34,965 bases of DNA from Ignavibacteriota bacterium (GTDB lineage: Bacteria; Bacteroidota; Ignavibacteria; UBA10030; UBA6906): NCBI GenBank assembly GCA_016218065.1, contig JACRFA010000038.1:1-34965 (forward strand), written 5' to 3'. Below the pieces are notes generated by a model that worked only from the letters and a program-made list of their open reading frames with translations, was not told where the DNA came from and did not search any database. Shown piece by piece: positions 4,265 through 18,924 of the stretch. The position numbers were made by a program, and so were the translations under genes. The number at the start of each line of letters is the position of its first letter. Positions within the stretch are counted from its first letter, which is position 1.

Positions 4265-5491
4265 ATGAGTGAGCTGATAAACAATTCGATTGCGCGGAAA
4301 ACGAAACTCAAAGAACTCATCCTCAAGCTCCACGCCGGCGCATCGGAGCAACAAGTCCGACAAGAACTGCTGCAGACGCTCAGCAGCATTCCCTACGGCG
4401 AAGTTGTTGAAGTCGAGCAGGAGTTGATGAGCGAAGGCCTGCCCCAGCACGAAGTGCTGAGGCTCTGTGACGCACACTCTGCGGTGCTACGCGGCGCCAT
4501 CGACCTCTCGACATCAAAGGGAATTCCTCCGGGGCATCCCGTTGATGTGATGATGCACGAGAACAAGGAACTCCTGAACGTCGCGCAACAGCTTGATGTT
4601 CTTCTCTCCGGAGAATCGCTGACCGCGAGTGAAAACATCGCAGAACTCATTCTCGCGCTGCGAAGCCACTTCAATAACCTGTACGATGTGGACAAGCACT
4701 ATCAACGCAAAGAGTACCTGCTGTTTCCCTATCTCGAGAATCTCGGCATTACAGGTCCGCCTAAGGTGATGTGGGGAAAACACGATGAGATCCGCGACCA
4801 ACTCAAGGGAAGCATCGAGGCGTTGCAAGCGCCGGGCATCAGTCAGGAGGAACTCGTTGCATTGGCAGAAGTGCTGCTGAGACCGGCCATCAGAGGCGTG
4901 GCAGACATGACCTTGAAAGAAGAGCAGATTCTCTTCCCGATGTCGCTCGACGCGCTGACGGAAGCGGACTGGTACGAGATCAGCAGGCAGTCGCTGGAAA
5001 TCGGCTTTTGTCTCTATGATCCGCCGACCACGTGGCGGCCTGCCTGGGCAGCGGAAGGAGACGACATGAACAAATCGGGAAACACCATTCAACTGTCGTC
5101 CGGAAACTTCACCGTGGAGGAGCTTCACGCGATTCTCAACACGCTGCCTGTTGACATCACGTTCGTGGACAAGAATGACAAAGTGAAGTACTTCTCGCAG
5201 AACAACGATCGCATTTTCCGGCGCAGCCGCGCAATTCTCAATCGCGACGTGCGGAATTGTCATCCGCCGGCGAGCAGCCACATCGTGGATAAGATCATCG
5301 AAGACTTCAAGAACGGCAGAGAATCGCGAGCGCCCTTCTGGATCAATTTGGGAGGGAAGATGGTGCACATCGAGTACTTTGCCCTGCGGAGTGAAAAGGG
5401 AGAGTACCTCGGAACGTTGGAAGTGTCGCATGACGTCGCACCGTACAGAAAGCTGGAAGGCGAGCAACGAATTCTCTCTTACGCGAGGTAA
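4265..5491 (+). CDS. DUF438 - hemerythrin-like - PAS protein
   Basis: A 408-residue soluble protein with three parts. The N-terminal DUF438 helical segment is at about 1-95 (LKELILKLHAGASEQQVRQEL). The hemerythrin-like four-helix domain is at about 95-250, with candidate di-iron ligands in MMHENKEL, HYQRKE (H145-E150), GKHDEIR and LKEEQILFP. The C-terminal PAS domain is at about 290-400 (LPVDITFVDKNDKVKYFSQ, then GEYLGTLEVSHDV). Family members are thought to sense or handle oxygen or NO; that role is inferred here. The ATG at 4265 gives the usual MSELINN-type start. Two bases separate it from the next gene, so the two are co-transcribed. Confidence 0.85.
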   Translation: MSELINNSIARKTKLKELILKLHAGASEQQVRQELLQTLSSIPYGEVVEVEQELMSEGLPQHEVLRLCDAHSAVLRGAIDLSTSKGIPPGHPVDVMMHENKELLNVAQQLDVLLSGESLTASENIAELILALRSHFNNLYDVDKHYQRKEYLLFPYLENLGITGPPKVMWGKHDEIRDQLKGSIEALQAPGISQEELVALAEVLLRPAIRGVADMTLKEEQILFPMSLDALTEADWYEISRQSLEIGFCLYDPPTTWRPAWAAEGDDMNKSGNTIQLSSGNFTVEELHAILNTLPVDITFVDKNDKVKYFSQNNDRIFRRSRAILNRDVRNCHPPASSHIVDKIIEDFKNGRESRAPFWINLGGKMVHIEYFALRSEKGEYLGTLEVSHDVAPYRKLEGEQRILSYAR

Positions 5492-15810: not shown

Positions 15811-16545
15811 ATGGCAATCTTAACTCTTACAATCAACGGCGAACACGTGAGCGGCAAGGACGATGAGTCGCTGCTCGACATCGCTCGCCAACACGATGTC
15901 CACATCCCCACACTGTGTCACCTCGACGGCCTATCGGATGTCGGCGCGTGCAGGTTGTGTCTGGTGGAAGTCGAAGGCCAATCGAAGCTCTTTCCGGCGT
16001 GCACGACGAAGCCGCAGGAGGGCATGGTCATCCGTACAGACACCGAGCGTCTGAAAAAATATCGCCGCACAATCATTGAACTGCTCGCGTCGGAAGGGAA
16101 CCATCAGTGCGCAGTCTGCGTGGTGAATAATCATTGCGAGCTGCAGAATCTCGCGTATGACGTCGACTTGCAGTACGTTCGCTTCCCGTATCTCTATCCG
16201 AAGAAAGAACTCGACGCGACACACGAAGATTTTGTGATCGATAGAAATCGTTGCGTACTCTGCACGCGCTGCGTTCGTGTCTGCCATGAAGTGGAAGGCG
16301 CACACACGTGGGATATCGCGGGCCGCGGCATCGACTGCACGATCATCGCCGACATGAATCAGCCGTGGGGTACGTCGGCAAGTTGTACATCGTGCGGAAA
16401 GTGCGTGCGCGTATGCCCGACCGGCGCGTTGTTTGAGAAGGGACAAACTGTTGCAGAGATGGAGAAGCAGCGCGACTTTCTGAAGTACATTGTTCACGCC
16501 CGCCAGAAACGCGAGTGGGTGGCGGAACAGATCGAAGAAGAATAG
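15811..16545 (+). CDS. hoxU: Hydrogenase diaphorase subunit HoxU (NuoG N-terminal-like)
   Basis: A 244-residue iron-sulfur subunit wiring HoxF to HoxY. In order: a plant-type [2Fe-2S] domain ([15 protein letters not shown]... PACTTK), a His-Cys3 [4Fe-4S] motif ([15 protein letters not shown]), and a two-cluster ferredoxin domain ([13 protein letters not shown] and [17 protein letters not shown]). It has the normal HoxU length and lacks the long molybdopterin-like region of NuoG, as expected for group 3d. The stop at 16543 is followed by an AT-rich palindromic spacer before hoxY. Confidence 0.95.
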
Positions 16546-16551
16546 AAACAG

Positions 16552-16619
16552 AATTGACCATTGACTATTGATTGTTGACAGTTGATCGTTAACGAATAGT
16601 CAATGGGCAACGGTCAATT
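16552..16619. repeat. AT-rich palindromic spacer between hoxU and hoxY
   Basis: Inner arms CATTGACTATT (16559-16569) and AATAGTCAATG (16595-16605) and outer arms AATTGACC (16552-16559) and GGTCAATT (16612-16619) form a large imperfect stem. The same words (TTGACTATTG, TTGATCGTT, GTTGACAGTTGAT) recur near 6251-6285 (complement) and 19754-19786, so this is a repeated type of spacer. Confidence 0.6.
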
Positions 16620-16664
16620 GTTAATTCCTAATTGTGAACGTTGAATTGTGAATGGTGAATAAGA

Positions 16665-17201
16665 ATGAAGCCAAGAGTCGCTACGGTGTGGCTGGGAGGA
16701 TGCTCCGGCTGCCACATGTCGTTTCTCGACATGGATGAACGGCTGATTGAGCTGGCAGACAAAATCGAGCTTGTGTATTCGCCAATTGCTGACGTGAAGC
16801 AATTTCCAATGAACGTCGATGTCGCGCTTGTCGAGGGTGCAGTCTCCAACAACGAGAACGAAGAGTTGGCGCATCTCATCCGCCGGAATGCAAAGTTCGT
16901 GCTGTCGTTCGGCGATTGTGCAACGACGGGCAATGTGACCGCGATGCGCAATCAGTTCAGTCCCGACGAGATCATCCATCGAGCATACGTCGAGCTTGCC
17001 GAAGCCGATCCGACAATTCCGTCGGAGTTCATGACTATCGCGAAGCTGCTGCCGCAGGCAAAGCCGCTGCACGAGGTGATCCCGGTCGACGGATTTCTTC
17101 ACGGTTGTCCGCCGACTCCCGATCAGATCTGGTTTGCGGTGAGCGAGTTGCTTGCGGGCAGAACGCCGGTGTTGCCGAACGCGTATTTGCGCTATGGATG
17201 A
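16665..17201 (+). CDS. hoxY: NiFe hydrogenase small subunit HoxY
   Basis: A 178-residue cytoplasmic small subunit carrying only the proximal [4Fe-4S] cluster, as in group 3d. Ligand candidates are C13 and C16 ([11 protein letters not shown]), the cysteine of [10 protein letters not shown] and that of [11 protein letters not shown]. There is no twin-arginine signal and no medial or distal cluster domain, which fits a soluble NAD-linked enzyme. The ATG at 16665 lies in AATAAGAATG with a poor ribosome binding site. A 295-base gap holding a MITE-like element separates it from hoxH. Confidence 0.94.
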
Positions 17202-17237
17202 AGAGCGTTCACCGCGATTGAGATGCAATTGAACTAA

Positions 17238-17376
17238 CAGGATGCTGAAAAAGAAAGAACCGATCCACGAAGAACACGAAGGTGCACGAAGACTCTTCTG
17301 ATACTAGCAAAAAGCACTTCTTAGTGTCCCTTCGTGAACTTCGTGGATAAGAATAGCGGGGTTTTTCAACAACCTG
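17238..17376. mobile_element. MITE-like element between hoxY and hoxH with 4-bp target duplication
   Basis: Imperfect terminal repeats CAGGATGCTGAAAAAG (17238-17253) and GTTTTTCAACAACCTG (17361-17376) are flanked on both sides by CTAA (17234-17237 and 17377-17380), a likely target-site duplication. Inside is a second inverted repeat, ATCCACGAAGAACACGAAG (17263-17281) against CTTCGTGAACTTCGTGGAT (17330-17348), with 17 of 19 bases pairing. It is non-coding, 139 bases. Confidence 0.65.
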
Positions 17377-17391
17377 CTAATTGGAGGTGAA

Positions 17392-17469
17392 ATGGAGAAT
17401 AGCAACGCGTTGCCAATATCTGGTGTCGTGAGGGGCTGGGTCACGCTGCGCTCCGATACTGAAATGTAG
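17392..17469 (+). other. Possible 25-residue ORF upstream of hoxH
   Basis: The ATG at 17392 directly follows a strong TTGGAGGTGAA and reads MENSNALPISGVVRGW, VTLRSDTEM to TAG. hoxH starts 27 bases later and has only a weak ribosome binding site. It may be a leader peptide, or the original hoxH ribosome binding site displaced by rearrangement. It is not recognised. Confidence 0.3.
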
Positions 17470-17496
17470 CTTAACTGTGAATTGATCAAGAAAGAA

Positions 17497-18924
17497 ATGT
17501 CCAACGTAATCACAATCGAACCCGTCACCCGCATTGAGGGTCACGCAAAGATCACAATTCAGCTGGATGAGAAGGGCGAAGTGCGGGACGCTCGGTTTCA
17601 CGTCAACGAATTCCGCGGCTTTGAAAAATTCTGTGAAGGCCGCCTGATGTGGGAGATGCCCGGCATTACGTCGCGCATCTGCGGCATTTGTCCCGCAAGT
17701 CACCTCGTGACGTCGGCGAAAGCCGGCGACGATATTCTCGCTATCGGCATTCCAGAAACAGCCGAGAAACTTCGCCGCTTGATGACTCTCGGCCAGTGGG
17801 TGCAGTCGCATGCATTGAGCTTCTTCCATCTCTCGTCGCCCGATTTTCTGCTCGGCTTCGACTCCGAACCTGCGAAACGGAATGTGTTCGGGCTGATGGA
17901 AGAACACAAGGATTTTATCCGGCGTGGAATTCGTTTGCGGAAGTTCGGACAGGAAATCATCGAGCTGCTCGGCGGAAGAAGAATTCACACGCCCTGGGCG
18001 GTTGCAGGCGGTGTACGCGAACCGTTCGATGAGGAGAGGAAAGCGAGACTCCTCGCCTGGATTCCTGAGGCGAAAGAAACCGCCCGCATGGCGCTGGATG
18101 TGTTGAAGAAGATTCACGAGCAGTACGCGCATGACATTCCGAATTATGGCAACTTCCGTTCGTTGTACGTGGGACTCGTGAGCGACGACGGCGGGCTGGA
18201 GTATTACGGCGGCGCACTGCGCGTGCGCGACGGCGACGGCAATACGATTGCCGACAAGATCGATCCACGCAAGTACTACGAACATTTCGGCGAACGATCG
18301 GAGTCCTGGTCGTACCTGAAATTCCCTTACTACAAGAAGCTCGACTACAGCCGCGGCATGTACCGCGTCGGCCCGCTCGCGCGTATCAACATCTGCGATT
18401 ATATCGAGACGCCGCTTGCCGAAGCCGAGCGCAGGATCTTCAAAGCCATCGCAGGCGACGTGGAAGTGATGAACAACTCGTTCTACTATCACTACGCTCG
18501 GCTGATCGAGATTCTGTTTGCCGTCGAGAAGATCGAGATGCTGCTGAACGATCCGATCATTCTGGGCGAGAATGTGCGCGCCAAGGCGATGATCAACAAG
18601 AGAGAAGGCGTCGGGGTGTGTGAAGCGCCGCGCGGCGTTCTCTTCCATCACTATTGGGTTGATAGCGACGGCGTTATCAAGAAAGTGAACATGCTGATCG
18701 CGACGGCCCAGAACAATCTCGCGCGGAACAGAACAGTCCGCCAGCTCGCGATCCAGTATCTCGATGGAAAGAAACTGACGGACGGCATGCTCAACCGCAT
18801 CGAAGCGGGGATTCGTTGCTACGATCCGTGTCTCTCCTGCTCAACGCATGCCGTCGGACAGATGCCGCTGCACGTGCAGCTCGTGGACGCGGCGAACAAT
18901 GTTGTGGATGAATTCACACGATGA
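17497..18924 (+). CDS. hoxH: NiFe hydrogenase large subunit HoxH
   Basis: A 475-residue catalytic subunit holding the NiFe(CN)2CO centre. The N-terminal pair is C62 and C65 ([11 protein letters not shown]). The C-terminal pair is C445 and C448 (DPCLSCSTH). H451 precedes a 24-residue tail ([10 protein letters not shown]... DEFTR) that should be cut off by the maturation protease encoded next. The [16 protein letters not shown] start is typical. ATG 17497 is preferred over TTG 17482. The sequence belongs with group 3d (HoxH) enzymes. It overlaps hoxW by ATGA. Predicted cytoplasmic, producing or consuming H2 with NAD(H). Confidence 0.95.

Follow-up and report, generated by a model that had tools for sequence, protein, structure and literature searches.

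The window (the whole 34,965-nucleotide stretch of DNA that was analysed) encodes hydrogenase genes in the order hypB, hoxE, hoxF-like, hoxU, hoxY-like, hoxH-like and maturation protease, with a short repeat element located between the hoxY-like and hoxH-like genes. HoxE and HoxU scored above the NCBIfam cut-offs; HoxF, HoxY and HoxH were named from domain and position. The gene for the hoxY-like small hydrogenase subunit (PF01058) occupies 16665-17201 of the forward strand, with its stop at 17201, and that for the hoxH-like large subunit (PF00374) occupies 17497-18924 of the same strand. The longest open reading frame for hoxH opens at TTG 17482, but ATG 17497 was preferred as the start. The resulting gap between hoxY and hoxH is 295 nt, whereas the corresponding gap in relatives is usually short (no more than 20 nt in 42 of 72 loci; 80 hoxY loci were examined, and the eight at which our script found no HoxH motif were dropped). 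This bears out the claim of a first-pass annotation that the element splits two subunit genes that normally lie close together.

The element spans 17238-17376 (139 bp, not assigned to a strand), is short and non-coding, and lacks an internal open reading frame of 100 aa or more. It is flanked on the left (17234-17237) and right (17377-17380) by identical copies of CTAA, a target duplication of the YTAR type that is seen in the sequence and matched by YTAR flanks at other copies. The placement, length and flanking CTAA given in the first-pass annotation (17234-17380) are thus confirmed by the sequence. The left terminal inverted repeat, CAGGATGCTGAAAAA, lies at 17238-17252 on the forward strand and the right one, CAGGTTGTTGAAAAA (as its reverse complement), at 17362-17376 on the reverse strand. 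They are identical at 13 of 15 bases. The repeats had been described as imperfect and 16 bases long; they are imperfect, but the match is 13 of 15, or 13 of 16 if the sixteenth base is counted. Including the flanking duplication, the outer arms comprise 21 nt and are 81% complementary. The nested second stem was also found: its left arm (17263-17292) and right arm (17319-17348), both given on the forward strand, form a 30-nt inner hairpin that is 83% complementary and is composed of inverted CACGAAG words. The predicted fold of the element alone is -47.8 kcal/mol (z -5.6; none of 200 shuffles equals it), and that of the element with flanks is -52 (z -4.4). With zero mismatches, the end pattern occurs in the window solely at the two ends of the element; at up to two mismatches there are four matches, versus 0.85 expected, and none of 100 shuffles gives four.

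Directly 3' of the element, at 17392-17469, there is a GGAGGTGAA site followed by a 25-codon open reading frame; no second DNA copy of this stretch was found in the congeners. We considered the remaining spacer (17377-17496) as a second repeat and rejected it, as a search of the three genomes of the genus found no significant further copy of it.

Both the ends and the interior of the element recur across the genome. A similarity search of this 5.17-Mb, 319-contig genome returned 68 matching pieces, and the YTARCAGGNTGTTGAAAAA end pattern (YTAR-CAGGNTGTTGAAAAA ends), allowing up to two mismatches, occurs 110 times genome-wide (54 + 56) versus once (1 + 0) for a reversed control. Among the 100 ends listed (of the 110), 24 pairs of facing ends lie within 500 nt of each other, where by our estimate about 0.26 would be expected. 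After the surroundings of the ends were fetched, pairs were called with looser limits, and 46 paired short elements were accepted from 74 loci examined. Most loci without an accepted pair carry members of the same classes that are truncated or decayed. An alignment of 16 class A copies (those with a CACGAAG interior, as in the hox element), which we selected, shows homology that spans ends, arms and loop.

The commonest 4-bp flanks of the paired copies are TTAG, CTAA and CTAG. The two flanks are identical in 17 of the 46 pairs and differ by one mismatch in 16, by two in nine and by three in four. Of the 31 clean-ended copies, 13 have an exact duplication; shuffled flanks give 5.2 on average, and none of 2000 flank shuffles reaches 13, although this test is somewhat biased in that the pairing score rewarded matching flanks. 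Imperfect flanks in 29 of the 46 paired copies imply that many copies are old or mis-paired, and the MITE population in this genome looks old. Genes transcribed in the same direction flank 29 of the 46 paired copies (28 called by script, plus the window's own, which was miscalled via an antisense open reading frame). Since most paired copies likewise lie between co-directional genes, the position of the element in the hox operon is ordinary for its family. The first-pass annotation, which proposed a MITE-like insertion, suggested searching for other copies with the same ends and CTAA flanks; dozens of copies with the same ends and YTAR (CTAA, TTAG or CTAG) flanks were found. Neither of the two findings that would speak against an insertion, a lack of other copies and retention of the same spacer in relatives, was made: copies are many and relatives are without the element.

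Sequences from elsewhere point to the kind of enzyme that would mobilise the element. The exact end pattern was found by pattern search on 39 contigs in IMG/VR. Two intact insertion sequences, L199 (1539 bp, encoding 367 aa) and L204 (1320 bp, encoding 365 aa), have the same ends with CTAG on both sides, and their proteins match the NCBIfam IS5 model NF033581 with 266 and 291 bits, respectively (cut-off 140). Nine further IMG/VR contigs carry short elements with the same ends, of 150-171 bp with duplications included. The target duplication of IS5 is YTAR (PMC10359306, in part), and the CTAA of the hox element fits this target. A transposase with matching ends, another proposed check, was thus found in other organisms but not in this genome. 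In this metagenome-assembled genome, a search with three Pfam families identified no autonomous partner. DDE_Tnp_1_6 is represented by one fragment, at a contig edge, and no DUF772 gene was found in any of the genus's three genomes. The one complete DDE_Tnp_1 gene in the genome, on contig C150, was rejected as the driver because its ends differ (CACTACTGTCCAACT type); at about 1-1330 of this locus (L157), a 389-aa DDE transposase gene is associated with CACTACTGTCCAACT ends that bear no relation to those of the MITE. Several ends in congener G001 coincide with contig breaks and lead into coding-like sequence, which in two cases includes MRGNDPKQAP (read by eye). Exact ends occur in only five of 296 genomes of the phylum, so the transposition system is patchy there.

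The interval 17238-17376 is almost certainly a MITE, an identification strongly supported by the dozens of copies, the YTAR flanks and the matching-end transposase in other organisms. The best explanation, to which we assign a probability of roughly 0.85, is a non-autonomous miniature transposon inserted by IS5-type transposition; judging from the sequences compared, mobilisation of this MITE by an IS5-type transposase is very probable. An IS5-family transposase that recognises CAGGNTGYTGAAAAA ends would cut and insert at YTAR sites and duplicate the 4-bp target (here CTAA). Such an enzyme, which this genome no longer encodes or whose gene was not assembled, probably moved this copy into the hoxY-hoxH gap, and the insertion would postdate the divergence of the species from its two sampled congeners.

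The same ends enclose a variety of interiors. Among the 46 paired copies, 19 have CACGAAG interiors, 22 are of the GTCATTCCGA type, three of the CCCCTTCTCT type and two of other types. In G001, two copies (L145 and L150) have the same ends around a CACAGAG hairpin. Genome G251 has the same ends with a GTCATTC-type interior, and G263 has one end followed by CGCAAAG-type sequence. CACGAAG hairpins also exist without terminal repeats (e.g., on contig C132). The occurrence of the same ends around unrelated insides suggests, from these sequence comparisons, that MITEs were made repeatedly around pre-existing hairpins. Several anonymous dispersed hairpins of Ignavibacteria-type genomes are thereby linked to a single transposition system, with IS5-type ends and YTAR duplications, and these ends carry differing cargo hairpins.

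An extra inner palindrome, CCTGC...GCAGG, was also seen in class A: most of the 16 aligned copies have it within the left arm of the element and two have one within the right arm, and the hox copy lacks the palindrome. On either side of it stands CACG (or CGTG), which gives it the look of a mobile insertion with a 4-bp duplication of its own; carriers in the alignment (A1) include L222, L239, L243, L247, L263 and L284, among others. Contig C208 (L365) of this genome also has CACGAAG hairpins in a tandem and inverted array that lacks MITE ends.

In the two congeners, G001 and G002, the orthologous hoxY-hoxH gap lacks the MITE and contains a CACAGAG-type hairpin instead; the spacer of isolate CHB1 (L065) matches that of G001 contig C29. 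The congener spacers do not align with that of the window, so an exact empty site is not demonstrable. The hoxU-hoxY gap of the window (16546-16664, no strand assigned) contains a second dispersed-type hairpin, with TTGACNATTGAC words, that is separate from the MITE, and hoxY in the window is thus bracketed by two such hairpins. The corresponding gap has a CACTGAG-type hairpin in G001 and a CACAAAG-type hairpin in G002. The congener hairpins (CACAGAG, CACTGAG and CACAAAG types) are located at 4535-4670 and 3920-4000 of L065, in L296 and at 11636-11834 of L369. Both gaps beside hoxY are therefore occupied by dispersed hairpins in all three species of the genus, and the families differ.

This pattern raises an alternative in which the element is a functional intercistronic hairpin, maintained by selection to tune message stability, with any dispersed family available for recruitment beside hoxY. 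An inverted-repeat score of at least 36 is reached by five of the six hox gaps, versus 13 of the 147 other gaps between co-directional genes (Fisher p 7e-5) and seven of 68 gaps in a length-matched background (p 3e-4), where the score is a simple one and the background gaps were sampled from 21 stretches only. When the gap reported here and the decayed inherited copy are set aside, four of four hox gaps reach 36. Against this, the pattern was spotted post hoc, and G001 and G002 share one of their hairpins by descent; it has decayed in G002 to a score of 19, the sole hox gap below 36. Beyond the genus, hoxY-hoxH hairpins that score at least 36 are rare (three of 72 loci, one of them a congener), and the hairpin was rejected as a conserved feature of hoxYH outside the genus. 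The excess of hairpins in the hox gaps is thus a lead rather than a result, given its post hoc recognition, the relatedness of the species and the 21-stretch background, and selection of this kind is an unlikely explanation for the element. The broader proposal is rather improbable: that IS5-type ends repeatedly packaged unrelated hairpins as interchangeable carriers and, in addition, that in this genus hairpins are retained in the two gaps beside hoxY, their family changing from one species to the next, because a structure there balances HoxY and HoxH (and upstream) message. If hairpins beside hoxY are under selection, they would constitute a natural test, comparable across three related species, of whether a hydrogenase operon takes up mobile hairpins as intercistronic regulators. 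As a separate observation, two unrelated hoxYH loci from Anaerolineae and Acidobacteria, L131 (3878-3951 and 4530-4707) and L141, have inverted repeats of other word families in both gaps beside hoxY.

The first-pass annotation suggested that the stem might terminate, slow or process the transcript and thereby shift the HoxY:HoxH ratio. A material effect of the inserted miniature transposon on hox expression is possible but somewhat doubtful. By analogy with other elements, transcript processing or stabilisation would be the likeliest effect, if any exists: reports on Correia and ERIC elements describe RNase III and message-stability effects (PMC2229807 and PMC10969869, each in part). The element is probably read through within the hox transcript, where it would form a long imperfect duplex. 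If it acts at all, this duplex might be cut by a double-strand RNase or might hold back 3' exonucleases, and the HoxY and HoxH messages could thereby decay at different rates. Within 16400-17700, we found no sigma-70-like promoter sites and no match to Rfam covariance models at E values up to 1.

Alternatively, the inner stem could terminate or attenuate transcription between hoxY and hoxH. The stem is long and stable, and GGGGTTTTTC follows it within the right terminal repeat, but this T run lies about 13 nt beyond the inner stem, inside the outer repeat. The interval 16400-17700 contains no intrinsic-terminator-like sites (shuffles give 1.4), making termination by the element unlikely. Full termination would also abolish HoxH, although hoxH is an intact open reading frame. 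Overall, it is quite improbable that the stem is there as a terminator or attenuator.

Spread by a Y1 (RAYT) transposase would make the element a REP-type palindrome rather than a MITE of the DDE type. Two Y1_Tnp genes are encoded in this genome, and the CACGAAG hairpins without terminal repeats (C132 and the C208 array) are compatible with such an origin. The terminal repeats and YTAR duplications, on the other hand, fit IS5-type transposition, and neither the CACGAAG motif nor the terminal repeat was found at any of the ten Y1 loci examined. Motifs near these ten genes are instead of the GTCATTC type (at two), the CACAGAG type (at one) and the CGCAAAG type (at two). As an account of the whole element this origin is very improbable, but RAYT spread may apply to the inner hairpin alone. 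Finally, a chance palindrome or an artefact of the 319-contig assembly is refuted by the copy survey, with its dozens of homologous copies in separate places with matching flanks; the folding z of -5.6 also speaks against it.

Miniature transposable elements of the MITE kind are well known, and the element inserted between hoxY and hoxH is a real MITE of an already known kind; the variety of its relatives' cargo and the hairpins in the hox gaps are leads. A limited search of open-licence literature found no report of MITEs in Ignavibacteria and, among the papers listed, none of a repeat between hoxY and hoxH. MITEs inside operons have already been described, for example Chunjie (PMC10969869, in part), as has a MITE that interrupts the hydrogenase gene hupL in Thiomargarita (PMC4853749, in part).

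Among known systems, the IS5-family insertion sequences (NF033581; L199 and L204) have the same 15-bp ends and the same 4-bp YTAR duplication as the hox element. The hox element differs in that it is only 139 bp long and encodes no transposase, and no autonomous copy was found in its genome; the comparison covered ends and duplication. REP/REPIN sequences with their RAYT are also dispersed intergenic hairpins, and two Y1 genes occur in this genome, but the hox element has terminal repeats and a duplication, and no association with Y1 genes was found. The Chunjie MITE of Geobacter uraniireducens is, from the part of its description available (PMC10969869), likewise short, present in tens of copies, inserted in an operon and accompanied by partial copies; it is 235 bp long, compared with 139 bp for the hox element. 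The Correia/NEMIS and ERIC elements resemble the hox element by description, in partial texts (PMC2229807, PMC10969869), as transcribed hairpin MITEs near genes; they are reported to affect message processing and stability, whereas the hox element has the IS5-type YTAR duplication. The BrickBuilt MITE of Porphyromonas gingivalis, as far as its partial text goes (PMC4596501), shares an interior of repeated short words, which in BrickBuilt form a 23-nt tandem minisatellite and in the hox element are inverted CACGAAG words.
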